45,684 bases of DNA from a virus. The notes under the pieces were generated by a model that was not told the origin of the DNA, searched no databases, and saw nothing but the letters and a program-made list of their open reading frames with translations. The stretch is taken from positions 1-45,684 of the IMG/VR virus record IMGVR_UViG_3300034117_002487; one strand, given 5' to 3'. Positions 5,594 through 33,076 of the stretch are shown piece after piece. The stretch's first letter is position 1. Each line of letters begins with the position of its first letter. The translations under genes were made by a program, and so were the position numbers.

Positions 5594-6823
5594 ATGCAAG
5601 TATTTGAAGGGGCCCAGGGTGGGCTCATAAAGGCCTGGGTCGACGGAGTGCCCGTTGAAGACCAGGCTCGGCAGCAGCTTGACAATATCGCGAGCATGCC
5701 CTTTATCCACAAGCACGTGGCCATCATGCCTGATGTGCATTGGGGTATGGGTGCTACGGTCGGCTCGGTTATCCCCACCAAAGGGGCGATCATCCCGGCA
5801 GCCGTTGGCGTCGATATTGGCTGCGGCATGATGGCTCATCGCACCAGTCTCACGGCCTCGGACCTCCCTGACAACCTGTCCGGCTTGCGGACGGCAATCG
5901 AGGAGGCCATTCCGCATGGTCGGACTGACAATGGTGGGCGAAATGACCGGGGGGCTTGGGGCGAGCTTCCGACTGAAAGCAACTGGCTCTTCACTGGTGG
6001 TGTCCCCAGCCTCCACTCTGGCCTTCGACGGATTGTCGACAAGCATCCCAAGATCGAGCGGGCGGCGGACCGAGCGGTCCACCATCTCGGCACCCTTGGC
6101 ACGGGCAATCACTTCGTCGAGGTATGCCTGGATAAGCAGGATCGTGTGTGGATAATGCTGCACTCTGGTTCGCGCGGTATTGGCAACCGCATTGGGTCCT
6201 ACTTCATCGAACTGGCGAAGCAGGATATGCGCAAGTGGTTTGTGAACCTGCCCGACGCTGACCTGGCCTACCTGCCTGAAGGCACTGAGCACTTTGCCGA
6301 CTACATGGAGGCGGTAGCGTGGGCACAACGCTTTGCCCGCACCAATCGTGAAGTCATGATGCGGGCGGCCATGAGTGCCTTGGCCAAGGCCGTGCCCAAG
6401 CCCTTCTCCGTTGACGAGGAAGCGGTGAACTGTCACCACAACTACGTGTCTCACGAGCGGCACTTCGGAGCAGATGTGCTTGTGACGCGCAAGGGTGCGG
6501 TGTCCGCAAAGGAGGGCGAGCTTGGCATCATACCCGGCAGCATGGGCGCTCGATCCTTCATCGTCCGCGGCAAGGGCAACCGTGAGAGCTTCTGCTCGTG
6601 CTCCCATGGTGCAGGCCGAGCAATGTCCCGCAATGAAGCGCGCAAGCGGTTCACGCTGGAAGACCATATTGCGGCCACTGAAGGGGTCGAGTGCCGCAAG
6701 GATGAGGACGTCATCGATGAGACGCCCGCAGCCTACAAGTCGATCGACGCCGTTATGGCTGCACAGGCTGACCTCGTCGAGGTGGTCTATGAGCTCCGCC
6801 AGGTTGTATGCGTGAAAGGATGA
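5594..6823 (+). CDS. rtcB: RtcB-type RNA-splicing ligase
   Basis: 409 residues, full family length. RtcB joins RNA 2,3-cyclic phosphate or 3-phosphate ends to 5-OH ends using GTP and Mn2+. Visible motifs: DVHWGMGATVGSVIPT (47-62), VGVDIGCGM with the metal-binding Cys (71-79), GTGNHFVEV, HSGSRGIGN, and the guanylylation motif HGAGRAMSR near the C-terminus. Start supported by AAAGGAGA. In phages it probably reseals tRNAs cut by host anticodon nucleases. This phage also encodes a tRNA and a tmRNA, so RtcB fits an RNA-maintenance programme. The gene overlaps the ligase start. Confidence 0.95.
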   Translation: MQVFEGAQGGLIKAWVDGVPVEDQARQQLDNIASMPFIHKHVAIMPDVHWGMGATVGSVIPTKGAIIPAAVGVDIGCGMMAHRTSLTASDLPDNLSGLRTAIEEAIPHGRTDNGGRNDRGAWGELPTESNWLFTGGVPSLHSGLRRIVDKHPKIERAADRAVHHLGTLGTGNHFVEVCLDKQDRVWIMLHSGSRGIGNRIGSYFIELAKQDMRKWFVNLPDADLAYLPEGTEHFADYMEAVAWAQRFARTNREVMMRAAMSALAKAVPKPFSVDEEAVNCHHNYVSHERHFGADVLVTRKGAVSAKEGELGIIPGSMGARSFIVRGKGNRESFCSCSHGAGRAMSRNEARKRFTLEDHIAATEGVECRKDEDVIDETPAAYKSIDAVMAAQADLVEVVYELRQVVCVKG

Positions 6824-7977
6824 TGGAAGACATGACAGTGGCCATGATGAAGGTCCTCTTCAAAAAGGACGCGAACGGAAGCATGCGGACTTGGCAGGTG
6901 GAGCGCGAATGCGTCAACGCCCGCTATCGTGTGCATCACGGGGTTCTTGGCGGCGCGACCGTCACAACCGGGTGGGTGAATGTGCAGGGCAACACCTTGC
7001 GGTCCCCTTCAGAGCAATGCGCCTCCGAGGTTGAAGCCCTCTACAAGCACAAGCTCAAGACGGACTATTTCGACAGCCAGGTCGAGGCCATGGCCGGACC
7101 TCGGCACCTTGAGCCCATGCTTGCCAAGGGGTGGGACAAGATTGGCAAGAAGTTCGGCATGCCGTGGGAATGGATACTCCAGCCCAAGCTCGATGGCATT
7201 CGATGCTTGGCCAAGGCCGACGGATGCTTCTCCCGCAGCGGGGAGAAGTTCCTGACCACCGGCCCGATTGAGGAAGCTTTGCGCCCCCTGTTCGAGGCCA
7301 ACCCGGACCTGGTGCTCGACGGCGAGCTCTACAACCATGAGTTCCACGATCGGTTCAATGAGCTCTCGGGGCTGATCCGGAAGGGGATGAATGCCAAGAC
7401 CCCTCCGACAGTCGAGGAACTGTCCATGGCGCACTCTGTCATGCAGTATCACGTCTATGACATGCCGAGCCATCCCGGAGAACAAGACGAGCGGGCACGT
7501 GAGCTGGTAGAGCTGGTCCATGAGGTCCATCCCTTGCTCTTCTATGTGGATACCTGGGACTGCTCGAGCGAGGAGCGGGCAGACGAGCTCTATGAGCGCT
7601 GGCTGCAGGAAGGGTATGAGGGGATGATGTATCGACGCAAGTCAGCCCTCTACCAATACGGCAAACGGCCGTGGGACCTGCTCAAGCGCAAGCAGTTCGA
7701 GACTGCGGAGTTCCGCATCAAGCGGATCGAAGAAGGCGAAGGCGACTGGAAGGGCAGGGCCAAGCGCATCGTGTTCGAGTGGCATGATGGCCGCGAGTTC
7801 GGCTCAGGTCTTCGTGGCGATCGCGACGGGTTCTGCAAGAAGCTTTTCGACGATTGGGTTCTCGGCGAGTGCGAGTATGAAAGCGCCACTGTGCGTTACA
7901 TGCCTCCACCCGAAGGGGCCGTGCCGCGGGTAGCCGTGGCTATTGATTGGCATGGCAAAGACGGAAGGACAGACTAG
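6820..7977 (+). CDS. ATP-dependent DNA ligase with WGR-like N-terminus
   Basis: About 385 residues. The start overlaps the rtcB stop (ATGATGG); in-frame ATGs at 6808, 6823 and 6832 are alternatives. Residues about 10-85 resemble a WGR domain (LFKKDANG, then TWQVE and a Gly-rich stretch), a DNA-end-binding module. The catalytic part has motif I KLDGIR with the adenylated Lys at about 123, motif III LDGELY at about 166-171, motif IV EGYEGMMYRR and motif V LLKRKQF. It would seal nicks in phage replication and repair. The C-terminal OB domain appears present. It ends convergent with the minus operon, overlapping by 4 bases. Confidence 0.9.
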   Translation: MMEDMTVAMMKVLFKKDANGSMRTWQVERECVNARYRVHHGVLGGATVTTGWVNVQGNTLRSPSEQCASEVEALYKHKLKTDYFDSQVEAMAGPRHLEPMLAKGWDKIGKKFGMPWEWILQPKLDGIRCLAKADGCFSRSGEKFLTTGPIEEALRPLFEANPDLVLDGELYNHEFHDRFNELSGLIRKGMNAKTPPTVEELSMAHSVMQYHVYDMPSHPGEQDERARELVELVHEVHPLLFYVDTWDCSSEERADELYERWLQEGYEGMMYRRKSALYQYGKRPWDLLKRKQFETAEFRIKRIEEGEGDWKGRAKRIVFEWHDGREFGSGLRGDRDGFCKKLFDDWVLGECEYESATVRYMPPPEGAVPRVAVAIDWHGKDGRTD

Positions 7978-8387
7978 CCGTGCTTGGCTACTAAGGCCCT
8001 AGCCATATCAAGCAGGGCCTCATCAGTTCCGTCATTGCGAGCTCGGTTGATGATCCAGGCTACTAGCCGGACATTACCGAGCTCGTAACCCTTTGAGTTA
8101 TCTATGCGGTCTATCGAAGGAGCCCAATCACCAGCGCCCCAGATAAGCGAGCGATCCGTCATGGCGCAACGCATGGGTGCAACTAGTTCGGTGAGTTGAT
8201 CCAAAGTCAGCAATAGTATATGACCCCGCTTCCTTGAACTTGAAACGAGGCCCCGATATAAGCTCTTTACTGGATTATTAGCTCGCCAACGCTTATCTCC
8301 TTTGCGAGAAGCGGCTTTAGCAGTATCAGGGTTGTTGGCCCGCCACTTACGACAAGCTATGCGGGCCGCTTCAAGATCACGTGCCAC
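7974..8387 (-). CDS. HNH homing-endonuclease-like protein
   Basis: About 137 residues from a GTG at 8387, chosen for GGAG 7 bases upstream; ATG 8402 and TTG 8411 are alternatives. Two Trp-Arg-Ala-Asn-Asn-Pro repeats in the first third (KWRANNPD, RWRANNP) are typical of phage HNH nucleases. The core is SIDRIDNSKGYELGNVRLV followed by INRARN, the DRID-GY-NV signature. The classical first His is not clear, so activity is uncertain. It is the last gene of the minus operon and overlaps the kinase gene upstream, a common site for a free-standing homing endonuclease. Confidence 0.7.
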   Translation of the reverse strand: MARDLEAARIACRKWRANNPDTAKAASRKGDKRWRANNPVKSLYRGLVSSSRKRGHILLLTLDQLTELVAPMRCAMTDRSLIWGAGDWAPSIDRIDNSKGYELGNVRLVAWIINRARNDGTDEALLDMARALVAKHG

Positions 8388-8901
8388 GCATCCACTCCAC
8401 ATTACGAGCAATATCGTCCAAAGTATCGCACCGGAGCAGCGTCACGATAGAAGCAAATTGCTCTACCAGGTTCTTCACAGCTGTTCCTTGGCGCTTTAAC
8501 ATCGCCTCGGGCTGAGACCGCTCGAGTGCGCGTCGGGTCATAAGCTCCGGGCCATCCGTTATGGTGACCCCTAGGCGCACATCAAAGCCCATATCTTGCA
8601 TTTCGCGGATGGTCTTGCCATGGCCAAGCCGGGCACCCTCCCACACAACATGCCACCCTTTGTGGCCGTAGACCCAGGCATGTTCCATGGCTATGGGCTT
8701 GATGCTCATGGACAATCGATCGGTGCCGGGGAACTGGTGCTCCTCGTCATAGCGACCGAATACCACAACTCCGTCGAGAGGGTCCTCGTGACGAGGCAAG
8801 CGCTGGTCATTGCGATAGTGGAAATCACCCGAGGCTAGGAAAGCCTTCATGAGAGTGCTCTTGCCCGTGCAGGGCTCTCCAACAATGATCGTCGCTTTCA
8901 T
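8377..8901 (-). CDS. P-loop kinase-like protein
   Basis: 174 residues. ATG 8901 has AAGGG about 9 bases upstream; a GTG at 8922 is in frame. Walker A is GEPCTGKST (about residues 8-16). Further features are FGRYD, GTDRLSM, a Trp-Glu-Gly-Ala-Arg-Leu strand end and QPEAMLKRQGTAVKN near the C-terminus, so it is a small nucleoside/polynucleotide-kinase-type enzyme. Its layout (GRYD, GTDRLSM, EGxRL, late Arg/Gln helix) recalls the P-loop kinases that phosphorylate hydroxymethylated bases in hypermodified phage DNA, but that is from memory of the family and not shown here. A polynucleotide kinase partner for the ligases is the alternative. Confidence 0.6.
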   Translation of the reverse strand: MKATIIVGEPCTGKSTLMKAFLASGDFHYRNDQRLPRHEDPLDGVVVFGRYDEEHQFPGTDRLSMSIKPIAMEHAWVYGHKGWHVVWEGARLGHGKTIREMQDMGFDVRLGVTITDGPELMTRRALERSQPEAMLKRQGTAVKNLVEQFASIVTLLRCDTLDDIARNVEWMRGT

Positions 8902-9293
8902 GCCAATGCCCTTATAGCCCACAGCTCATTAGCCTGGCAGTTATCACCAGGCTTACCAAATCCATCAGACACGCCAGTAGCCGCAAGCAGAACCTTGAGC
9001 AGCTCAGGGTTCTCAGCTATGTATTCATCCCACAGCTGACGGTAAAGCACGTCACACTCATCCTGGTTGATGGCGCGTCGTCCCTTGGCTTTGCGCCAGT
9101 GTTGACCTGTCGCCCCGCCCTTAAAGACCTTGGCGCCCTGATAGAGCTCCTCAATTGAGGCATCTCCGCGGGCCTTGATCCTTGCAAAGAATGGACTGAA
9201 GCGGGTGTCTCCTCGGCTGCTGCACTCCAGATAGGGGAAGCAGCCATGCTTCACCATTCGCCGTGGCCCATGCAGCACCAGAACACTCGCCAT
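8898..9293 (-). CDS. Conserved phage protein (DUF6939-like)
   Basis: 131 residues, beginning MASVLVLHGP, 10 bases after the primase stop. The block YLECSSRGDTRFSPFFARI (about 22-40) followed by SIEELYQGAKVF is a strong conserved signature I associate with the DUF6939 family; function unknown. The Ser/Arg/Gly/Asp cluster looks like an active or binding site. The stop overlaps the kinase start by 4 bases, so the two products are probably made together. Association with primase and kinase points to DNA metabolism or modification. Confidence 0.6.
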   Translation of the reverse strand: MASVLVLHGPRRMVKHGCFPYLECSSRGDTRFSPFFARIKARGDASIEELYQGAKVFKGGATGQHWRKAKGRRAINQDECDVLYRQLWDEYIAENPELLKVLLAATGVSDGFGKPGDNCQANELWAIRALA

Positions 9294-9303
9294 AGCCAGC
9301 GCA

Positions 9304-11745
9304 TCAGAGTTCCTCCACGTCCAGCACGGGGTCAATGTCCTCCGCATCTATGGTCCAAGGAAGCTTCGAGCCCAGCTGGCTTTCGAACATGGCGCGGCAT
9401 TCTTGCAGGCTCGGTATCTTGTAGCCATAAGCCCGGCCGGAGCTATCCGCCTTGATGTCCATCCTATCGGACGGCACAGCCAGGCGGACATGCCGGACAC
9501 TCGACCCGAGACGCTTCTTCAAGCGATCACCAATGACCGTTTGGGTCGAACGGCGAGCCAGGTGGCGGTCACCGAGCTTGCGGAGATATTCTTCCAGACC
9601 ACGTTGCAGGTCTTCAGTGAAGAACACGCAAATGCCCGTGCCGTCCTTGCTGTCCCACTCACCGACAGCAGGGTCCACATCACCAAGGTTACCACGGCTC
9701 AGGCTTTCATACCACCAGGCATCGAGGTTGTCCAGGCTCTGCAGCTTCTGCTTGGCAAGGGCGGAGGTCTGCGGGATACGTGCACGCGGGTGGAAGCCGG
9801 CGAGCTTGCGACGTTTCAAATCAAAGAGCAAGCCCTGCAATCCACCATTCTCAAGCTGCTCGTGGAGGGCTGCAAAGAATGCCTTGTTGCCTCGGAACTT
9901 GGTATTGACCTCACTCACGGCAAAGCGGCGTTCATCGTCCATGGACGCAGGGATCACCCAATCCTCGTTCGATGCCATGACCACGTGCAGGTAGTTCCTA
10001 GCCGTGACCACGTCCTTGCCTTTGGCTTCGATGACAATCGTCGGCTCAGTGATGAGGGCCTTGAGAGTGCCTTCCGCCTTCTTGTCACCGGCCCACATCG
10101 CTTCGTCCGCGAACAGCAAGATACAGTCTCGCAAGTGGGCGTTGAAGTGATTGGTGAAGTGTTGTTGACTTGAGATATGCAGGCCATGTCGACCAGCAAG
10201 CTTGTAAAGTGCTCGGAGGAATGTGCCCTTGCCTGTGCCCTTCTGACCCTTGAAGACCAGTGCGACTTCAGCCTGCTGGTCCGGGTGCTGGATCATGAAT
10301 GCAGACCAGTCGAGCACATACTCATAGAACTCGCGGTTGCCATCACACAGGCCTTCGAGCAAGAGAGTGTCCAGCAGAGACCAGTCACCTTGCTTTGGCT
10401 CGACAGCCCAGTCGGTCCACAGGTTGAGAACTTTAGCGGACTTAGGGATACGATTGCCAGGGTCAAAAGCCACGCCGTCGTAGGTAGTGCGCCCACCCCA
10501 TGTAAGCCACTCACTGGCTAGAGCCACAGTCTTTTCGCCCTTCTGGACGCGGTGATTGGAGAGGAAGTCGAGGAAGTCACCCTTGCGGCTTGTCTCCCAA
10601 TACTCGCGGGCCTCAGGGGTATCCGGCGTCACCATGCCCCAGTCTTTACGCTGGCGATAGATGCGAAACTGGCCATTCTCGTTCACAGCGCAGTAGCCCT
10701 TGGCGTTCATCCGCTCGAGAGCAGAGACCATGGGGTCACCCGTAGCATCGTCGGATTGGAGAAGCAGATCTTCATCCCCGTCGCTACCGGCCTGCACTTC
10801 CTCGACGTCCTCGAAGTCATCAGCTGCGGCTTCACGAGGCAGGAGGTCCGCACGGCCCTGATCGACCAGTGCCTTGAACAGGGTCTTCTCTGTAACACGC
10901 CGGCCAGTCTGATCGGCATGCAAGGTATCCCAGCGGCGGCCAATAACCCAGCCTTCACCTGAAAACTCTGGGTCGCCCGTGGACCATGCAATGAACTCAT
11001 CGCGGCCTTCACCACCCGTCGCATGGTGGCAAGCACACATCATTTCGAACCAAGCTGAATGCTCGCGGAATTGGGTCGGGTCGAGCCCGTCCAACATTCG
11101 CTCAAGCTCTTCGGGCGAACGGTTGCCGGCGTCCACCGCGGCAACACGGCCAGGACGACGTGCAAGCTCAATGAGTGCATCAGGTGCAGCACTTACCATA
11201 CTTAGCGGAGTAGCAAGGACGTCGTCGTCCCAACGATATTGCCCGCCGGCCTTAAGGCCAGACTTGTCATCGCCAGGGTGCACAGAGCCCGGCGCAACAA
11301 CCTGACGCCCGTGTGCCTTGAACTCAAGACCAGGATAGGCCTCAAGGGTATCCCGCAGCAACGCATCTGCAGGCTTCTTCATGTAGATATGGAAGCCACC
11401 TGAACCCGTGACGACCCGTGGATAATTATCTAAGTCTATGTCGAGGTCTTTGGCCAATCGAGTAAGCGGGTCATCGCCCTCGGCATAATTGCGAGGGTCA
11501 GCGTCAAGCACAAGGTCTTCAGGACGCAGGCGAACGCCCACGTTCTTACCATCGTGCATGTGCTCCTTGGCTTCGTCAACAGTGAGTGCTGGCAGTAGTC
11601 GCCACTTGGAACCCATGGGGGCCTTACCAATAAGGCGTCCGCGGGCGTCGCGCGCCTCAACCGCGTTGAGAGGCACCAGCTCATAACCGCCAGCCCTGAA
11701 CGCGGCCAATTGGTCTGGCCTATGATCCCACTTACTCTTCATCAA
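9304..11745 (-). CDS. Primase-polymerase / SF3 helicase fusion
   Basis: 813 residues. The N-terminal PrimPol domain has the catalytic DxD (VLDADPRN, D81 and D83), SGGFHIY (115-121) and HGRQVVAPGS (145-154). The C-terminal half is a superfamily 3 helicase of the D5/DUF5906 type: Walker A GQKGTGKGT, Walker B LLFADEAMW, then a long arginine-finger region (MDDERRF). It should prime and unwind DNA at phage forks. The start overlaps the upstream gene by 4 bases. It is the main replication protein of the minus operon and is opposite in direction to polA, which is encoded elsewhere in the plus block. Confidence 0.92.
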   Translation of the reverse strand: MMKSKWDHRPDQLAAFRAGGYELVPLNAVEARDARGRLIGKAPMGSKWRLLPALTVDEAKEHMHDGKNVGVRLRPEDLVLDADPRNYAEGDDPLTRLAKDLDIDLDNYPRVVTGSGGFHIYMKKPADALLRDTLEAYPGLEFKAHGRQVVAPGSVHPGDDKSGLKAGGQYRWDDDVLATPLSMVSAAPDALIELARRPGRVAAVDAGNRSPEELERMLDGLDPTQFREHSAWFEMMCACHHATGGEGRDEFIAWSTGDPEFSGEGWVIGRRWDTLHADQTGRRVTEKTLFKALVDQGRADLLPREAAADDFEDVEEVQAGSDGDEDLLLQSDDATGDPMVSALERMNAKGYCAVNENGQFRIYRQRKDWGMVTPDTPEAREYWETSRKGDFLDFLSNHRVQKGEKTVALASEWLTWGGRTTYDGVAFDPGNRIPKSAKVLNLWTDWAVEPKQGDWSLLDTLLLEGLCDGNREFYEYVLDWSAFMIQHPDQQAEVALVFKGQKGTGKGTFLRALYKLAGRHGLHISSQQHFTNHFNAHLRDCILLFADEAMWAGDKKAEGTLKALITEPTIVIEAKGKDVVTARNYLHVVMASNEDWVIPASMDDERRFAVSEVNTKFRGNKAFFAALHEQLENGGLQGLLFDLKRRKLAGFHPRARIPQTSALAKQKLQSLDNLDAWWYESLSRGNLGDVDPAVGEWDSKDGTGICVFFTEDLQRGLEEYLRKLGDRHLARRSTQTVIGDRLKKRLGSSVRHVRLAVPSDRMDIKADSSGRAYGYKIPSLQECRAMFESQLGSKLPWTIDAEDIDPVLDVEEL

Positions 11746-13442: not shown

Positions 13443-13627
13443 TGGCCATTGGCAACGAAGGTCGGGGGCGCTCGCGAGTGCGTCTCCGCCTTCAGGTTGA
13501 CGGAACCTGGTGGTATCTGTCACGGACACACCTGGCGTTTGTCGGCCCACATGAAACGGCCGAGGGCGCCTATAACCATGCGGTAGCGTGCGGTGCTCGC
13601 TGGCGTGATGAGGAGATTTATCAATGA
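13442..13627 (+). CDS. Small hypothetical protein
   Basis: 61 residues, start overlapping the upstream stop (TGATG). Arg-rich N-terminus and aromatic centre (GTWWYLSRTHLAFVGP). Unrecognised. It overlaps the next start by 4 bases. Confidence 0.55.
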   Translation: MAIGNEGRGRSRVRLRLQVDGTWWYLSRTHLAFVGPHETAEGAYNHAVACGARWRDEEIYQ

Positions 13628-14055
13628 TTGAAGGGCGCCTACCCGAGAAGTGCTGCGAATGCGGCCAGCTCATTGAGCACGCGGACGACTCTCCGGTGGT
13701 GCGTGGGGAGCTTGTGCTTCGCCCCGGCTTCCAGACAGCCGAATGGCGTGGCCAGACGGTTCGCATGACCGGCCGCGAGTTCCAAACGCTGCTGTTCATC
13801 GTCAAGCGTGGCGAAGCCATGGCTCGCAAGATGTCCATTTACACGGCGGTCTTTGAACGCCCGGATGGAACGCCAGAGCCCAAGATTGTGGACGTCATTG
13901 TCTGCAAGGTTCGGCGCAAGCTGGCGGGCGTTGGCGGTGACGGTTTGATCGCCACCGTATGGGGCCAAGGCTATCGGCTTGACCCCACCAACGGTTCACC
14001 CCCTATCTTGACTGGACAAATGCGTCGAGCTGCTGCAAAGAACAAGGAAGACTGA
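13624..14055 (+). CDS. CtrA-like winged-helix DNA-binding protein without receiver domain
   Basis: 143 residues. The C-terminal two thirds match an OmpR/PhoB-type winged helix: MTGREFQTLLFIVKRG (48-63), recognition helix PEPKIVDVIVCKVRRKLA (84-101) and wing IATVWGQGYRLD (109-120). The recognition helix and the TVWGxGY wing are closest to CtrA, the alphaproteobacterial cell-cycle regulator, whose DNA-binding half reads PELKIIDVFICKLRKKL. There is no phosphoacceptor receiver domain; residues 1-30 instead carry a short Cys cluster (KCCECG). It may act as a constitutive CtrA mimic or competitor on host or phage promoters. Confidence 0.8.
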   Translation: MIEGRLPEKCCECGQLIEHADDSPVVRGELVLRPGFQTAEWRGQTVRMTGREFQTLLFIVKRGEAMARKMSIYTAVFERPDGTPEPKIVDVIVCKVRRKLAGVGGDGLIATVWGQGYRLDPTNGSPPILTGQMRRAAAKNKED

Positions 14056-16427: not shown

Positions 16428-16460
16428 GAAGAGGCAAGCAGAAATGCTTGCCTCTTTACT
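16428..16460 (+). terminator. Terminator after the SSB gene
   Basis: Perfect 13-bp stem AAAGAGGCAAGCA (16428-16440) and TGCTTGCCTCTTT (16445-16457) with a GAAA tetraloop, followed by ACTATATAC. It closes the 12260-16350 transcript and directly precedes the RNA-gene promoter. Confidence 0.85.
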
Positions 16461-16461
16461 A

Positions 16462-16490
16462 TATACAATCCAGGATTTCCTAGGCATAAT
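16462..16490 (+). promoter_or_regulatory. Promoter of the tmRNA-tRNA unit
   Basis: TATACA (16462-16467), 17-base spacer, CATAAT (16485-16490). The -35 box is a variant of the TTTACW boxes elsewhere; TTTACT (16455-16460) is also present but 24 bases from the -10. Predicted start near 16497, just before the tmRNA acceptor piece. Confidence 0.6.
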
Positions 16491-16510
16491 ATAAAAGTGA
16501 ACTGTTTGAC

Positions 16511-16563
16511 TTTAGGTCGGCAGCTTGCGCAAGACCGGGGTGCAACTCCCCGCACCTCCACCA
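16511..16563 (+). ncRNA. ssrA: Permuted tmRNA, acceptor piece
   Basis: Upstream half of a circularly permuted tmRNA gene. T arm: CGGGG (16536-16540), loop TGCAACT, CCCCG (16548-16552). Acceptor 3-prime strand CACCTCC (16553-16559), discriminator A, encoded CCA at 16561-16563. The acceptor strand pairs with GGGGGTG at 16627-16633 and places a G3-U70 pair, the alanine identity element recognised by AlaRS. The 5-prime end is an estimate. The mature RNA is expected to be in two pieces, as in alphaproteobacteria. Confidence 0.85.
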
Positions 16564-16626
16564 TCTGCTGCGGTTTGAGGCGCTCGCCTCTTCCCGTCGT
16601 CCTGGCCTTAGGCCGCAGCAGTTGAC
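16564..16626 (+). ncRNA. Intervening segment of the permuted tmRNA precursor
   Basis: 63 bases between the CCA end and the 5-prime acceptor strand. CTGCTGCGG and CCGCAGCAG close a 9-bp stem that continues the acceptor stem and brings both halves together; CGAGCGCCTC-type pairing lies inside (GAGGCG with CGCCTC). This segment is removed in mature permuted tmRNAs. Confidence 0.7.
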
Positions 16627-16816
16627 GGGGGTGAACTAGGATCGATTGCGTCGGCGAGGATTTGGATAGGTTCACGGCATGGCTGCCTTATAGGCCAAAA
16701 ACGTAAATGTCAACGATAACGACATGTTCGAGGACGTCCGCCTCGCCGCGTAAGCGGTGACCTGACGTTTGTTCGATCTGCGGTATGGGTTCCACCGTAT
16801 CACCCAACGGACCCAT
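16627..16816 (+). ncRNA. ssrA: Permuted tmRNA, coding piece with degradation tag
   Basis: Begins with the acceptor 5-prime strand GGGGGTG, followed by GAACTAGGATCGATTGCG, the tmRNA D-region consensus. The tag reading frame is at 16694-16753: (A)KNVNVNDNDMFEDVRLAA then TAA. It ends in -RLAA, a ClpXP-type degron, and contains Asn-Asp-Asn as in alphaproteobacterial tags. A helix ATGGGT-CC / GG-ACCCAT (16785-16816) lies downstream. The exact 3-prime end cannot be set by eye. Confidence 0.85.
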
Positions 16817-16823
16817 TTCACTC

Positions 16824-16921
16824 CCTACCGGGGTGGAGGAGCGCATTGCAATGAGACGGCTTTATGCCTACGAATGTTGCAAGTGTTTCCGACCACCACG
16901 GTGCCCCTCCATCTCGGTAGG
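16824..16921 (+). ncRNA. Unidentified structured RNA candidate
   Basis: A 16-bp helix (16824-16839 with 16906-16921, two G-U pairs, no mismatch) encloses 66 bases containing further short helices (GGC-TTTAT-GCC; two TTGCAA copies). It lies between the tmRNA coding piece and the tRNA. It could be the 3-prime part of the tmRNA coding RNA, a processing domain or a separate small RNA. No protein is encoded here. Confidence 0.55.
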
Positions 16922-16930
16922 CAGTGATTA

Positions 16931-17007
16931 CAGGGCGTAGCGCAGTCTGGTAGCGTGTGCGGTTTGGAACCGTGAGGTCGTAGGTTCAAATCCTACCGCC
17001 CTGACCA
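16931..17007 (+). tRNA. tRNA-Pro (anticodon UGG)
   Basis: Full cloverleaf: acceptor stem CAGGGCG / CGCCCTG, D arm with CTGGTAGCG, anticodon arm TGCGG-TTTGGAA-CCGTG giving anticodon TGG, T arm GTAGG-TTCAAAT-CCTAC, discriminator A and encoded CCA. UGG can read all proline codons by wobble. It is the only tRNA in the window and shares the transcript with the tmRNA. Confidence 0.95.
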
Positions 17008-26026: not shown

Positions 26027-26989
26027 GTGGAACCATTCGAGCAAATAGAGCAGTTCTACCGCAAGGTAGTGCAGCTCCCTATCCCGCAGACCCCCACCCG
26101 ATTGACGCATGCGCAGAAGCTCAGTGCTGTCGAGCATTGGGATGAGGAGCACAAAGAGTTTCTTGAGGCTGAGACCCTTGAGGATGAAATCGACGCCTGC
26201 ATCGATTTGGCCTGGCTCGCCCTTGGCCGCGTTATTGAAATGGGCGCTTCTCTCCCTGACCACTTTGCTGAAGTGGTGCGGGCCAATATGGATCGTGTGC
26301 CTGGCCGCAATCCAAAGCGTCCTCTCTCCACTGGCTTTGACGCCGTAAAGCCTGAAGGCTGGCGCGGCCCCGATCATACTGCCATCCTGGTTCGTCATGC
26401 TGCGGCTATGATCGAGGAAGGTATGACCGACGCCGGCAAGGCCACCCAGGTGCGCAAGCGGATCATCCTGGTTGGCCATGGCCGGCACGGCAAGGATACC
26501 GTGGCTGAAATGCTGCGCGATCGGTATGGCTACCGCTTCACCTCATCCAGCCTGTTCTGTGCCGAAAAGGTCATGCTGCCCCTTTTTGAATACGAAGCTT
26601 CCAAGTGGCTGAGCCAAGGGGTTCCAGTCTATGCGGATGCAGCTGAATGTTTTGCGGATCGCCACGGCAGCTCCGCCGTGGGCGATCATCGGACTTTCTG
26701 GTTTGAAGGTATCAAAGCCTATTGCATACCCGACAAGGCCCGCCTAGCCCGGGAAATCTTTGCTGAGCACGATATGTATGTGGGCATTCGTGACAGTGCT
26801 GAGCTCTTTGCTGCCCAGCAGCTGGGTAACGTCGTGACCATTTGGGTGGATGCTTCAAATCGCCTGCCACCGGAACAGGGCAGCTCGATGAATATCGAGC
26901 CGACCTTTGCGGACCATGTGCTGGACAACAACGGGACCCTTGAAAACCTGTCCGCCAACCTTGAACGTCTGATGGAGAACCTAGCATGA
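26027..26989 (+). CDS. MazG-type NTP pyrophosphatase fused to a dNMP kinase
   Basis: 320 residues from GTG 26027. N-terminal MazG-like all-alpha domain: WDEEHKEFLEAE (38-49) and DEIDACIDLAW (53-63), the acidic metal-binding pair, followed by GRVIEMG. Residues 100-140 form a linker. The C-terminal part has P-loop VGHGRHGKDT (149-158) and the phage dNMP-kinase pattern (TSSSLFCAEKVMLPLF, ending SMNIEPTFADHVLDN). One polypeptide could hydrolyse a dNTP to dNMP and phosphorylate a modified dNMP, the job of separate T4 gp56 and gp1. First gene of the nucleotide operon, overlapping the next by 4 bases. Confidence 0.75.
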   Translation: MEPFEQIEQFYRKVVQLPIPQTPTRLTHAQKLSAVEHWDEEHKEFLEAETLEDEIDACIDLAWLALGRVIEMGASLPDHFAEVVRANMDRVPGRNPKRPLSTGFDAVKPEGWRGPDHTAILVRHAAAMIEEGMTDAGKATQVRKRIILVGHGRHGKDTVAEMLRDRYGYRFTSSSLFCAEKVMLPLFEYEASKWLSQGVPVYADAAECFADRHGSSAVGDHRTFWFEGIKAYCIPDKARLAREIFAEHDMYVGIRDSAELFAAQQLGNVVTIWVDASNRLPPEQGSSMNIEPTFADHVLDNNGTLENLSANLERLMENLA

Positions 26990-27849
26990 GCATCGCGGCC
27001 ACCTTTGCTGCAACCGACGACTTCCACGCGGTTTACCGGACCTTGCTCTGGCGCCTGTTGTCAGGCCACGCAATCAAAGAAGTGAATGAGCGAACTGGGG
27101 CGGTCATCTTTGCCTCCCCGGTGCCCATCCACTTCAATCTCGACCTGCGCGACGGTCAGCTGCCTTTGTGTGGTATCCGCAAGACCTTCCCTCGGACTGC
27201 CGCGGCTGAAGTTGCCTGGTTCCTGCTTGGCTCAAAAGACGTCTCCTTCATCCGTGAGTATGCGCCCATCTGGGACAAGTTCGTGGAGGAGGACGGGACA
27301 ACCGTCGCTGGCGCTTACGGGCATCGTTGGCGGGAACACTTTGGCCGAGACCAGGTAGCCAAGGCCATCAAAGCTTTGCAGAACAACTCTACGGATCGCC
27401 GCGTAGTTGTGATGGCCTGGGACCCGGGCAGTGACGGGCTGGGCGTGCCGTCTAAGAACGTTCCGTGTCCACTTGGCTTTACATTGTCGATTGTGGACGG
27501 CCGGCTCAACTCTGCCATGTTCATCCGCTCCAGCGATGTGTTCGTGGGTCTGCCTTACGACGTGATGGGGCATGCTCTCCTTATGCAAGCAATTGCCAAT
27601 TCGATTGGTGGCCTGAAGGGTCTTGGCACCATGTCAGTCACTCTGGCGCACCCGCATCTCTATGATGTCCACGAACAGATGGCCCTTGAAGCACTCAAGT
27701 CGGAGCCATCCACTGATACTCGTTTGCTGCCGCCTTGGTCCGTGGAGCAGATTGAAGACGACCCGCACGGCTACGTGCTGAATGTTAAGCTGCTGTTTGC
27801 AGCTATGAAGCAGCCCGAGTATTCTTGTCGGCCGGAAGTGGTTGCATGA
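26986..27849 (+). CDS. Thymidylate-synthase-superfamily enzyme, predicted dCMP-type
   Basis: 287 residues. Clear ThyA fold: AGAYGHRWRE (108-117), TDRRVVVMAW (136-145), active-site Cys161 in NVPCPLGF, RSSDVFVGLP (181-190) and HLY (224-226). Two key differences: Asp192 in LPYDVMGHALL replaces the Asn that selects dUMP in thymidylate synthases, and Pro162 follows the catalytic Cys in place of His. T4 dCMP hydroxymethylase carries Asp at the same position. The product may therefore be a 5-methyl- or 5-hydroxymethyl-dCMP enzyme, or a dUMP hydroxymethylase. It overlaps both neighbours. Confidence 0.85.
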   Translation: MSIAATFAATDDFHAVYRTLLWRLLSGHAIKEVNERTGAVIFASPVPIHFNLDLRDGQLPLCGIRKTFPRTAAAEVAWFLLGSKDVSFIREYAPIWDKFVEEDGTTVAGAYGHRWREHFGRDQVAKAIKALQNNSTDRRVVVMAWDPGSDGLGVPSKNVPCPLGFTLSIVDGRLNSAMFIRSSDVFVGLPYDVMGHALLMQAIANSIGGLKGLGTMSVTLAHPHLYDVHEQMALEALKSEPSTDTRLLPPWSVEQIEDDPHGYVLNVKLLFAAMKQPEYSCRPEVVA

Positions 27850-28292
27850 CCTGCTCAACTAAATGGGATGCTCGGTTCATGCGGCTTGTCGAAGGCGAGC
27901 CTCTGAGCTGGTCAAGCATACCGGGCAAGGAGGGTGGCGCAGCCGCCCTCCTCGTCTCTCCGGATCGCAGGCGTATGTCCGTTGGGTATGCCGGGCTTCC
28001 TCGTGATGCCAGCGAGGATTTGGTGCAAGCCTGTAAGAGCATGGCTGTCTTCCGCGATCGGTTCTGCAGGCATGCTGAACGCAATGCCTTGTCAAACATC
28101 GACTGCGACGTTGCGGGATGGACAGCCTATGTGACGGCTCAGCCCTGCTTGCAGTGTGCTCTTGAGCTGCATGCTCGCAGAATTGCACGAGTGGTTTGTC
28201 GCCGCTTAAAGCCCGGCAGCCGGTGGACACAAGAATGCGAAGAGGCCAAGCAGTTCCTGGAAGATCATGGTGTGGAGTATGTGCTATGCTGA
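27846..28292 (+). CDS. dCMP deaminase
   Basis: 148 residues from ATG 27846, overlapping the previous stop. Zinc-dependent cytidine/deoxycytidylate deaminase motifs HAERNAL and PCLQCALEL (H-A-E and P-C-x-x-C). It converts dCMP to dUMP, so it competes with or feeds the adjacent TS-family enzyme. Basic residues follow the zinc site. The stop overlaps the next start by 7 bases. Confidence 0.9.
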   Translation: MTCSTKWDARFMRLVEGEPLSWSSIPGKEGGAAALLVSPDRRRMSVGYAGLPRDASEDLVQACKSMAVFRDRFCRHAERNALSNIDCDVAGWTAYVTAQPCLQCALELHARRIARVVCRRLKPGSRWTQECEEAKQFLEDHGVEYVLC

Positions 28293-28774
28293 GAGCCATA
28301 ATGGCGGTGAGTGCTGACGGGTTTGTGTGCAGTGGGCCTGATGACAACATGCGTTGGACAGGCAAGGCGGACAAGCGGCTTTTTCGTGAGCAGACCGATG
28401 GATGCGCCATTGGTGCGGGGACAACCACCTGGGAAGCCATGCGGGGTCTCAATCTGCTCGGCCGCACCCTTGTCCGCATAACCCGTGAACCGCGGGACCT
28501 GGCCTCTCCAGACGGGCCGAGTGAAGAGCTCGAAATGACACTCGGAGCCTTCGCCGAGAACTACCCCGACGGATGGCTTATCGGAGGACAGACGATGCTC
28601 CTCTCCGCGATCCAGGACGGTTTCGTCGATTGTGTCGTGCTGTCACACGTCACGGCGGAGCTCGGAGAAGGTGTGAAGGACGAGGTGAGCAGCTTGCTGC
28701 ATTCCTTGGGCTGGACCATGCGCTATTTTCCGATGGGCGACCTCAAGCTGGTGACTTGGAACCGTGGGGCCTGA
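28286..28774 (+). CDS. Dihydrofolate reductase
   Basis: 162 residues from ATG 28286; ATG 28301 is also possible. DHFR pattern: RAIMAVSADGFVCSG (3-17), MRWTGKAD with the Trp loop, GAGTTTWEAM near the NADPH site, and WLIGGQTMLL. It regenerates tetrahydrofolate, needed if the TS-family enzyme oxidises methylene-THF to DHF, a point in favour of a methylase rather than a hydroxymethylase. Coupled to the genes on both sides. Confidence 0.85.
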   Translation: MLRAIMAVSADGFVCSGPDDNMRWTGKADKRLFREQTDGCAIGAGTTTWEAMRGLNLLGRTLVRITREPRDLASPDGPSEELEMTLGAFAENYPDGWLIGGQTMLLSAIQDGFVDCVVLSHVTAELGEGVKDEVSSLLHSLGWTMRYFPMGDLKLVTWNRGA

Positions 28775-29222
28775 GGCTACTCTCTGGTCATGGCTGCGTC
28801 GAGGGTTGAAGCCCCTCGGCCAGCCACATGACGTCCACCGCATAGAGACGTCCACCGAAAGTGGCTATCCCGACGTGGAAGGCTGCATCAACGCCAACAC
28901 CTTTCTGGTTGAGCTCAAGGTGGCTCGAAGCATCCGCAAGAAAGACGGTTCCTTTTCTCTCGATCACTATCATGCAAAACAGGCTTACACCCTCTATCGT
29001 CGCTGGCAAGCGGGCGGTCGGTCCTGGTTGCTGGTGCGGTATCCTGGGTCAGATACTACGGGCAGACACTTCCTTGTGCCCGGTCGAGAAGCCCTTATAG
29101 TCCACGATGAGCGGATGAAATTGACCCTTGGCTTTATGCAGGCAGTTAGCTGGCCTGGCTTCGAAGACGGTCTGGCCAAGGCCGATAAGCTTTGGCAAGG
29201 TATTTCTGGTCCCATTGTTTAA
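28764..29222 (+). CDS. PD-(D/E)XK (VRR-NUC-like) endonuclease
   Basis: 152 residues from GTG 28764, overlapping the DHFR gene by 11 bases. Catalytic core ETSTESGYPDVEG and FLVELKVA (Asp, and Glu-x-Lys) followed by a His/Gln helix (HYHAKQAYTLYRRW). A small nuclease of this type may act as a Holliday-junction or structure-specific nuclease. Its position inside the nucleotide operon is odd for a recombination enzyme; degrading host DNA to feed dNTP pools is another possible role. Confidence 0.75.
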   Translation: MGPEATLWSWLRRGLKPLGQPHDVHRIETSTESGYPDVEGCINANTFLVELKVARSIRKKDGSFSLDHYHAKQAYTLYRRWQAGGRSWLLVRYPGSDTTGRHFLVPGREALIVHDERMKLTLGFMQAVSWPGFEDGLAKADKLWQGISGPIV

Positions 29223-30164: not shown

Positions 30165-31178
30165 ATGGCCGTAGGCCTACTTACCCCGTCCACAGGCTAC
30201 AAGCCTTTTCGTTACCCATGGGCCTACGAGTTTTGGAAGCGCCAGCAGCAAGTGCACTGGCTGCCTGAAGAAGTCCCACTTGGTGAGGATTGCAAAGACT
30301 GGGCGGACAAGCTCACTGCAAGTGAGCGACATTTTCTTACCCACATCTTCCGCTTCTTCACACAGGCGGACGTCGACGTCATGGACAACTATCAAGAGCG
30401 CTATGCTCGGAAGTTTAAGCCCATCGAGGTCAAGATGATGCTGGGGGCCTTCCAGAACATGGAGACCGTCCACGTCGCGGCTTACAGCCACCTGCTTGAC
30501 ACCGTGGGTATGCCTGAGACTACCTACAGCGAGTTCATGGACTACAAGGCCATGAAGGACAAGCACGATTATATGGACCAGTTTGGGATGAAGACCCACG
30601 CTGACGTGCTGACCACTCTTGGTATGTTCGGGGCATTCTCTGAGGGGCTGCAGCTGTTTGCCTCGTTCGCCATGCTGATGAACTTCCCGCGGCACAACAA
30701 GATGAAGGGCATGGGTCAAATCGTCTCGTGGTCGGTCCGGGATGAAAGCCTGCACTGCGAGGGGATCATAAAGCTATTCCATACCTTCGCCCACGAGACT
30801 GGTGCCTATACTGATGAGGTTCGTGAGCGGCTCTGGACGCACTGCGAGCAGGTGGTGCAGATGGAGGATGCCTTCATTGACCTCGCCTTCGAGATGGGAC
30901 CGCAGGAGAACCTGACTGCGGATGACATGAAGCGCTATGTCCGCTTCATTGCAGACTGGCGACTCATGCAGCTCGGGTTCAAGACGGGTGGCTCTGCCTA
31001 TGAAGGGCCCATGTTTGCCACTGACCAGCGCAAGAACCCACTGCCCTGGCTTCAGCCGCTGCTGTCCGGTGTTGAACTGGCTAACTTCTTTGAAACCCGT
31101 GCCACGGAGTATTCAAAGGCCAGCTCGACCGGTGACTGGCAATCCACATGGGCGATGTTTGATAAGAAGGTGAAGTGA
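30165..31178 (+). CDS. nrdB: Ribonucleotide reductase class Ia, beta subunit
   Basis: 337 residues after AGGAGA. Di-iron radical protein: first Asp in FFTQADVDVM, ETVHVAAY giving Glu-x-x-His and the radical Tyr four residues after His, then Glu in SEGLQLFASF and RDESLHCEG with the last Glu and His. All key ligands are present, so class Ia activity with the alpha subunit is expected. The C-terminal Lys-Val-Lys tail is short. Confidence 0.93.
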   Translation: MAVGLLTPSTGYKPFRYPWAYEFWKRQQQVHWLPEEVPLGEDCKDWADKLTASERHFLTHIFRFFTQADVDVMDNYQERYARKFKPIEVKMMLGAFQNMETVHVAAYSHLLDTVGMPETTYSEFMDYKAMKDKHDYMDQFGMKTHADVLTTLGMFGAFSEGLQLFASFAMLMNFPRHNKMKGMGQIVSWSVRDESLHCEGIIKLFHTFAHETGAYTDEVRERLWTHCEQVVQMEDAFIDLAFEMGPQENLTADDMKRYVRFIADWRLMQLGFKTGGSAYEGPMFATDQRKNPLPWLQPLLSGVELANFFETRATEYSKASSTGDWQSTWAMFDKKVK

Positions 31179-33076
31179 TGCAAGACTACTATTACACCCC
31201 ACCAGGGGCCGACGAGCCGACGCGGGATATTGCAATCGATCATGTGCGCAATACTCGGCTGACCGACTTTGGCCGGTCCACCCTGCATGAGCGATACCTT
31301 CTGCCAGATGAAACGCCACAAGAGCTGTTTGCTCGTGTGTCTTGTGCTTATTCGGATGACAGTGCCCACGCACAGCGGCTCTATGATTATATGAGCAAGC
31401 TCTGGTTCATGCCGGCCACTCCAGTCTTGTCGAATGGCGGAACTGTGAAGGGCTTGCCGATCAGTTGCTACCTCAACGAGGTGCCCGATGACCTGGAAGG
31501 CATTGTCGGGACGTGGGTCGAGAATGTGTGGCTTGCTTCCCGTGGTGGTGGGATCGGAACCTACTGGGGCAATGTGCGGTCGATCGGTGAGCCTGTTGGC
31601 GCGGTTGGAAAGACCAGTGGGGGTGTGCCATTCCAGGTGGTGCAAAACTACCTCACGCTGGCTATCAGCCAAGGGTCTCAACGCCGTGGGGCTGCGGCGG
31701 TCTATCTCGATGTGGGGCATCCGGAGATTGAGGAGTTCATGGAGCTTCGCAAGCCCAGTGGGGATTTCAACCGCAAGACTCTTTACCTGCATCACGGAGT
31801 GCTTATCCCTGATGCGTTCATGGAGCGGGTTCGGTCCGGTGGGGATTGGGAGCTTCGCAGCCCGAAGGACGGTAGCGTCCGCAAGGTCGTTTCGGCCCGA
31901 GAGCTGTTTGCTCGGCTCGTGGAGACACGGCTCCAGACGGGTGAGCCCTATCTGGTGTTCACCGACACCGTGAACCGTGCAATGCCGGCCTGGCAGCGGG
32001 ACCTTGGATTGCGGGTTACGACCAGCAACCTGTGCGCCGAGATTACTCTGCCCACTGGGAAGGATCATCTGGGTGAGGACCGCACGGCTGTCTGCTGCTT
32101 GTCGTCGGTGAACCTTGAAACCTGGGACGAGTGGAAAGACCATCCTCAGTTTGTCGAGGACGTCATGCGGTTCCTCGACAATGTGCTGCAGGACTACATC
32201 GACCGAGCCCCTCTCGAGATGCGAAAGGCTGTCTATTCAGCTACCCGTGAACGGTCTGTGGGCCTGGGTGTGATGGGCTTCCACTCGATGCTGCAAAAGC
32301 GTGGGGTTCTTATAGAGTCGGCCATGGCCAAGGCCTTGAACCGCAATATCTTCAAAGAATTGAAGACGCGGGTCGATGCAGCCAGTGAAAAGCTGGCTGT
32401 TGAGAAGGGTCCTTGCCCTGATTGGGTTGACGCCCACCGCGGGGCAACCTTTTCCACAAGCAGCGGTCCGAAGCCACAACGCTTTGCCTGCAAGATGGCT
32501 ATTGCCCCCACAGCATCCATCTCCATTATCTGCGGGGGTGCATCTGCGGGTATTGACCCTATCCCAGCCAATGTCTATACCCACAAGACACTCGACGGGT
32601 CTTTTGTGGTCAAAAATCCATACCTTGAGAAGGTGCTGCAAGTTCGGTTGGCTGATGCCGTCCACGATGAAGATGTGACCAAGGAAGACTTGCTGGAGCA
32701 TACGTGGGATAGCATTCTCGAGCATGGCGGCTCGGTGCAGCACCTCGGTTTCCTGTCCGAGCATGAGCGAGCCATGTTCAAGACGAGCTTTGAGCTCGAT
32801 CAGCGATGGCTGCTTGACTTTGCGGCAGACCGAGCGGCACACGTTTGCCAGTCACAGAGCCTCAACCTGTTCATCCCCGCAGATGTTGACAAGTGGGACT
32901 TGCTGATGCTCCACTGGAAGGCCTGGGAGATGGGCATCAAGTCTCTTTACTATCTCCGCTCGATGAGCTTGCAGCGTGCAGCACATGCTGGCGGAGTGGA
33001 AGCGGACAACACCCCGGAGAGGCCAGTGCTGCAGGTAGTGCCCACTGATTATGAGGAGTGTCTCGCCTGCCAATAA
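31178..33076 (+). CDS. nrdA: Ribonucleotide reductase class Ia, alpha subunit
   Basis: 632 residues from ATG 31178, one base overlapping the beta stop. Active-site Cys in PISCYLNEV, thiyl radical Cys in SNLCAEITLP, third Cys in CCLSSVNL, radical-transfer Tyr pair in KSLYYLRSMSL, and C-terminal redox pair CLAC. The N-terminus is short with no ATP-cone, so the overall on/off allosteric site is missing, as in many phage enzymes, which allows unrestrained dNTP synthesis. Works with the adjacent beta subunit to supply deoxynucleotides. Confidence 0.95.
   Translation: MQDYYYTPPGADEPTRDIAIDHVRNTRLTDFGRSTLHERYLLPDETPQELFARVSCAYSDDSAHAQRLYDYMSKLWFMPATPVLSNGGTVKGLPISCYLNEVPDDLEGIVGTWVENVWLASRGGGIGTYWGNVRSIGEPVGAVGKTSGGVPFQVVQNYLTLAISQGSQRRGAAAVYLDVGHPEIEEFMELRKPSGDFNRKTLYLHHGVLIPDAFMERVRSGGDWELRSPKDGSVRKVVSARELFARLVETRLQTGEPYLVFTDTVNRAMPAWQRDLGLRVTTSNLCAEITLPTGKDHLGEDRTAVCCLSSVNLETWDEWKDHPQFVEDVMRFLDNVLQDYIDRAPLEMRKAVYSATRERSVGLGVMGFHSMLQKRGVLIESAMAKALNRNIFKELKTRVDAASEKLAVEKGPCPDWVDAHRGATFSTSSGPKPQRFACKMAIAPTASISIICGGASAGIDPIPANVYTHKTLDGSFVVKNPYLEKVLQVRLADAVHDEDVTKEDLLEHTWDSILEHGGSVQHLGFLSEHERAMFKTSFELDQRWLLDFAADRAAHVCQSQSLNLFIPADVDKWDLLMLHWKAWEMGIKSLYYLRSMSLQRAAHAGGVEADNTPERPVLQVVPTDYEECLACQ

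Follow-up and report, generated by a model that had tools for sequence, protein, structure and literature searches.

A phage gene cassette that probably supplies 5-methylcytosine nucleotides, with a predicted pyrophosphohydrolase-kinase fusion

Four overlapping genes in the 45,684-base virus record analysed here (the window, a fragment, so that genes may be missing from it) probably make 5-methyl-dCTP, with which all or nearly all cytosine in the phage DNA would be replaced by 5-methylcytosine (5mC). They probably also supply thymidine nucleotides by deaminating 5-methylated deoxycytidine nucleotides, as has been reported for Xanthomonas phage Xp12. The genes lie in tandem on the + strand at 26027-28774 and encode a fusion of a MazG-type pyrophosphohydrolase and a P-loop kinase, an Asp-type homologue of thymidylate synthase (TS), a deaminase and a dihydrofolate reductase (DHFR), the same four overlapping genes that a preliminary description had placed there (Table 1). 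In the pathway we propose, the MazG domain would convert dCTP to dCMP and so remove unmodified dCTP, and the TS homologue would turn dCMP and methylene-tetrahydrofolate into 5-methyl-dCMP and dihydrofolate, with DHFR regenerating tetrahydrofolate. The fused kinase would then phosphorylate 5-methyl-dCMP, and probably dTMP too, but should spare dCMP; a host kinase would complete the phosphorylation and the polymerase would incorporate the product, while the deaminase would convert part of the methylated pool to thymidine nucleotides. What the analysis shows is the order of the genes, their residues and domain folds, how far they are conserved, and a single TS with no ThyX in each genome checked; all of the enzyme activities, and 5mC in the window phage, are inferred. 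The pathway is not a new one but a variant of that of Xp12.

Table 1. The cassette and neighbouring genes in the window
Feature	Coordinates	Strand	Basis
MazG/PRA-PH-kinase fusion, presumed dCTPase and 5-methyl-dCMP/dTMP kinase	26027..26989	+	Pfam, PHROG, alignment and predicted structure, from which the putative activities are read
Asp-type TS homologue, presumed dCMP 5-methylase	26986..27849	+	Pfam, residue alignment
Zinc-dependent dCMP-deaminase-family enzyme, presumed deaminase of 5-methyl-dC nucleotides to thymidine nucleotides	27846..28292	+	Pfam, motifs
DHFR, presumed recycler of folate oxidised by the Asp-type TS homologue	28286..28774	+	Pfam, PHROG
phrog_2165 nuclease/helicase-like gene, operon neighbour, not a pathway enzyme	28764..29222	+	PHROG; overlaps DHFR gene
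Small and large ribonucleotide reductase subunits, for the general supply of dNTPs	30165..33076	+	Pfam, PHROG

The TS gene begins within the end of the fusion gene (ATGA), the deaminase gene begins at an ATG in an ATGA overlap with the TS gene (the listed TTG open reading frame starts at 27825), and the DHFR gene begins at an ATG in an ATGCTGA overlap with the deaminase gene (listed frame from 28196). Pfam identifies PRA-PH in the fusion (2.7e-07, residues 13-87), thymidylate synthase (4.4e-37), dCMP deaminase (5.4e-11) and DHFR (2.1e-07), and PHROG also supports each of the four genes; NCBIfam gave no name to the fusion or the deaminase. The nuclease gene just downstream of the cassette is also present in RcSimone-Hastad, ZQG1 and Donnerlittchen.

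The TS homologue was compared with E. coli TS (EcTS), whose numbering was checked on the catalytic residues and agrees with the PDB alignment, and with gp42 taken from the T4 record. In the alignment, C161 is the catalytic cysteine of the window protein, D192 corresponds to EcTS N177 and P162 to EcTS H147, and the equivalents of EcTS R21, E58, W80, Y94, R126, R127, C146, R166, S167, D169, H207 and Y209 are kept. The Asn at position 177 that is canonical for dUMP-using TS is thus absent, bearing out the earlier assignment to an Asp type, and the protein scores below the cut-off of the NCBIfam TS equivalog models. Of the 59 distinct homologues aligned, 58 have both Asp177 and Pro147, the exception (L092) having N177 and H147. 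MetaGPA put positions 177 and 147 first among those by which modified contigs differ from unmodified ones, and work cited there found that N177D switches the substrate of EcTS from dUMP to dCMP (PMC8670742). The residues of the Asp-type homologue therefore point to dCMP as its likely substrate. The same Asp is found in T4 gp42.

If dCMP is the substrate, is the group added methyl or hydroxymethyl? Methylation by a TS-type enzyme oxidises folate, whereas hydroxymethylation does not, and the C-terminal tail of TS folds over the active site during the reductive step that ends the reaction. Each of 16 genomes checked contains exactly one TS, and ThyX was found in none of 16 genomes in a largely overlapping set (all virus records, and possibly fragments), so that no second TS or ThyX was found there as a partner for DHFR. 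The Asp-type enzyme is therefore the most likely user of DHFR, which favours methylation over hydroxymethylation, although this argument is supporting rather than decisive, as some cassettes are without DHFR. The C-termini of the cassette family, mostly P-x-[VI]-[VIL]-x, resemble the TS tail APVAI, whereas T4 gp42 ends in DYVGKYA. The view of the preliminary description that DHFR favours methylation gains support from the single TS, the lack of ThyX and this tail, which has no counterpart in gp42.

A T4-like route, in which the Asp-type enzyme adds a hydroxymethyl group and the product is phosphorylated, incorporated and perhaps decorated further, appears to us rather unlikely. It would fit the Asp177 of gp42 and the parallel of a dCTPase-like domain and a gp1-like kinase with T4 gp56 and gp1, and contigs with a carbamoyltransferase acting on 5-hydroxymethylcytosine (5hmC) also hold PRA-PH and dCMP deaminase domains (PMC8670742). 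Against it stand the DHFR gene in an operon of genomes with a single TS and no ThyX, the TS-like tail, and Pro at position 147 where gp42 has Thr; a scan of window ORFs found neither a glycosyltransferase nor a carbamoyltransferase, and the measured relative, Xp12, has 5mC rather than 5hmC (PMC7653180). The window and T4 gp56-gp42-gp1 do follow the same plan, in which dCTP is removed, dCMP is modified and the modified nucleotide is then phosphorylated, and both have the Asp in a TS-fold enzyme. They differ in that the window product is probably methylated, DHFR lies in the operon, the first and last activities are fused, the genes are contiguous and there is no separate TS. The T4 three-step model drawn earlier thus holds in its outline of a modified-dCMP pathway with dCMP as likely substrate, but the nearest model is Xp12, with its 100% 5mC, dCMP methyltransferase and 5-methyl-dCTP deaminase; an Xp12-type role for the window deaminase had not been drawn.

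Complete replacement of cytosine by 5mC in Xp12 was reportedly described in 1968, with supporting enzymology from 1976-1982. In its DNA 5mC replaces all cytosine (PMC7653180), and the phage has been credited with a dCMP methyltransferase (PMC8543423) and with a deaminase that makes dTTP from 5-methyl-dCTP (PMC12088426); the genetic mechanism was still called unknown in the AXL1 paper of 2022 (PMC9206674). Xp12 has been grouped with AXL1 and DLP4, with near-identical gene order (PMC9206674), and AXL1 served as our proxy for Xp12 (record MT664984). The order pyrophosphohydrolase, Asp-type TS, deaminase, DHFR is common to the window, AXL1 and PaMx74, and to Xp12 by its reported gene order. Xp12-type cassettes have the same TS residues (Asp177, Pro147) and the same deaminase Trp at Xp12 position 128 as the window, but the AXL1 and PaMx74 pyrophosphohydrolases carry another C-terminal domain in place of the P-loop kinase. 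AXL1 DNA was cut by only 5 of 31 enzymes (PMC9206674) and DLP4 DNA by 0 of 36, and PaMx28 and PaMx74 DNA was also reported resistant (PMC6469090). The protein named 'deoxynucleoside monophosphate kinase' in DLP4 (PMC6469090), at 65 aa, is probably not an entire kinase.

The window deaminase has the motifs HAE and PCxxC, and opposite W128 of Xp12 it also has Trp, a residue present in all cassette deaminases examined but also in most deaminases outside the cassette family. It has GYAG for GYNG and SIP for KDP, and so lacks the Asn of G(Y/F)NG, which is not known to be required and is kept in AXL1 and other Xp12-type relatives; RDJL Phi 1 and Tedan have GYSG. Among 22 distinct deaminases of the kinase-type cassettes, 12 (these three included) have Ala or Ser at this position, always with loss of the KDP Asp, whereas AXL1-type deaminases keep the Asn of GYNG. 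In the T4 deaminase this residue, Asn40, touches the dC moiety (PMC12697855), and its loss in the window enzyme weighs against the proposed pathway. As reported for Xp12, the window enzyme probably converts methylated cytosine nucleotides to thymidine nucleotides; 5-methyl-dCMP is a substrate of DCTD-family deaminases (PMC12088426). Such an activity could also serve thymidylate supply only, with dCMP converted through 5-methyl-dCMP to thymidine nucleotides, dUMP bypassed and plain cytosine kept in the genome. The lack of another TS or ThyX in the genomes checked, the DCTD-family activity and the plausibility of dTMP as a kinase substrate, given that this kinase family is elsewhere fused to ThyX, would all agree with this; yet a dCTP-removing MazG domain would then be superfluous, and relatives with the same gene order have restriction-resistant DNA (PMC9206674, PMC6469090), so we consider it distinctly improbable. 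Least likely is an ordinary operon in which the deaminase makes dUMP, TS makes dTMP and DHFR recycles folate, as described in the DLP4 and AXL1 papers (PMC6469090, PMC9206674) and implied by the GenBank annotation of most relatives as thymidylate synthase, since it conflicts with Asp177 in 58 of the 59 homologues, the N177D switch from dUMP to dCMP (PMC8670742) and the scores below the TS equivalog cut-offs, and leaves the restriction-resistant DNA unexplained.

The cassette is widely conserved. MazG precedes the TS gene in 47 of the 52 related contigs found with the TS alignment, the deaminase follows it in 44 and DHFR does so in 37, with all three in 32, a gene order far beyond chance; the search of related phages for the same order, suggested earlier, thus found it. 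Between the MazG domain and TS lies a slot of variable content: the kinase in 22 contigs (fused in 21), the AXL1-type domain in 19 (fused in 17) and a separate DUF6378-like protein in 6. In one member, Mallos, the AXL1-type domain shows a weak resemblance to Nucleotide modification associated domain 1. A kinase profile search of 16 genome records was positive in the 5 of kinase type (the window and 4 relatives) and found no kinase anywhere in the 11 genomes whose cassette has the AXL1-type domain. The records examined also included PaMx74, DoCa5, Mallos, ZQG1 and Donnerlittchen, and AXL1 has the order pyrophosphohydrolase-TS-deaminase-DHFR. RDJL Phi 1 (a Roseobacter phage), RcSimone-Hastad (Rhodobacter) and Tedan (Ruegeria) have the same MazG-kinase fusion, at 34-43% identity (tblastn), followed by TS and deaminase; the first two have DHFR in the cassette and Tedan does not. 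Their records name the fusion Cof hydrolase, MazG-like or hypothetical and the TS homologue thymidylate synthase or ThyX-like, and propose no pathway. Public annotation can mislead here, with the fusion given as Cof hydrolase, the TS homologue as ThyX-like and the pyrophosphohydrolase as HAD superfamily hydrolase (L001 11968-13014; L002 13135-14025; L006 2710-3483). For kinase-fused cassettes, we found no phage with a base composition.

The fusion protein joins an all-alpha NTP pyrophosphatase domain (PRA-PH/MazG, DR2231-like; residues ~1-125) to a P-loop dNMP kinase domain (~145-320). A single-sequence search of viral_contigs for it gave no match, and an alignment-based search succeeded. Its predicted structure (mean pLDDT 89) matches the DR2231 MazG protein in the first half and small-molecule and nucleotide kinases in the second; the AlphaFold model of a kinase-less MazG protein had low confidence (mean pLDDT 69) and was left out of the structure search. 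In the MazG domain, the candidate metal ligands E40-E41-E44 and D60 (EExxE and the Asp of ExxD) are invariant; the Glu of ExxD aligns in sequence to A57, adjoining an invariant D56, which suggests that this family carries D-A-x-x-D where DR2231 carries E-x-x-D. DR2231, the best fold match, was crystallised with dUTP analogues, and dCTP is assumed to be the substrate of the MazG domain here. The kinase half is backed by PHROG and weakly by Pfam (DNMK, PF21448: 0.0036, residues 146-168 only, 17.4 bits, below the 27.1 cut-off). Alignment and predicted structure give it the P-loop GxxxxGKD[ST] and kinase fold of the T4 gp1 family of dNMP kinases, and GKDTV is invariant in a 21-member kinase alignment, whose profile finds dephospho-CoA kinase and, weakly, the T4 dNMP kinase 1DEK (E 0.0021). 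Kinship with the gp1 family (DNMK) thus appears to be distant only.

What would this kinase phosphorylate? In the Schitoviridae roseophage V13 of Ruegeria (L093, 2989-4509), the same P-loop kinase family, at ~40% identity over the kinase, is fused to the flavin-dependent ThyX, implying dTMP as substrate; a dCMP deaminase gene lies nearby, upstream, and no MazG fusion or Asp-type TS was found in that stretch. The family also occurs in other phage and genome contigs with no TS homologue nearby by the models used (ThyX searched in the phage contigs only). These ThyX fusions make dTMP a likely substrate as well, and 5-methyl-dCMP is accordingly not specifically indicated. Known phage dNMP kinases act on dGMP, dTMP and 5-hydroxymethyl-dCMP (cited in PMC6469090), and a kinase acting on 5-methylated pyrimidine dNMPs (dTMP, 5-methyl-dCMP) would fit both fusion contexts and this range. 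The kinase fusion is inessential to the pathway, because Xp12-type phages do without it, and is a lineage-specific variant. The TS tree has 6 changes of the kinase-fusion label, but its starred branches still allow a single origin. We speculate, with somewhat less than even confidence, that one bifunctional protein might guard both ends of the pathway by destroying dCTP and reserving phosphorylation for the 5-methylated products (5-methyl-dCMP, dTMP); unmodified cytosine would thereby be kept from re-entering the dNTP pool, and phage thymidine would be made solely from methylated cytosine.

The cassette offers a concrete four-gene candidate set for 5mC replacement of the Xp12 type and likely extends the modification to Roseobacter, Rhodobacter and Ruegeria phages. 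It also suggests that dCMP methylases may really be what many phages encode under the name thymidylate synthase, and the fused kinase hints at how a phage can select a modified nucleotide. Two points are new with respect to the records and literature consulted: the MazG-kinase fusion is interpreted as a dCTPase-kinase of a 5mC pathway, and an Asp177/Pro147 signature shared across the family ties the phages of Roseobacter, Rhodobacter and Ruegeria to the Xp12 type. We found neither stated in the open-licence papers searched.

Elsewhere in the window, a P-loop kinase gene placed at 8377-8901 had been suggested to add a later step. This role finds no support: the gene (8377-8922; PF18751) is present in the window only and in none of the 15 cassette relatives searched, and tblastn relates it to proteins of mycobacteriophages and Caulobacter phages that carry the annotation adenylate kinase or terminase small subunit. 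Adjoining it, 8898-9347 has a weak match (2e-4, below cut-off) to the NADAR antitoxin of DarT1 and possibly acts in counter-defence. A permuted (two-piece) tmRNA gene, apparently unusual in a phage, lies at 16458-16844, beside a tRNA-Pro at 16931-17007, and points to an alphaproteobacterial host; ARAGORN calls it tmRNA* with tag VNDNDMFEDVRLAA, and it exceeds the gathering score of the Rfam models tmRNA_permuted (84.3 bits) and alpha_tmRNA (58.1 bits). The gene at 13624-14055 has a Trans_reg_C DNA-binding domain (2.6e-12) and possibly encodes a regulator resembling CtrA, the annotation given in RDJL Phi 1, and an RtcB RNA ligase (5594-6823; 6e-135) is followed by a DNA ligase (6808-7977).
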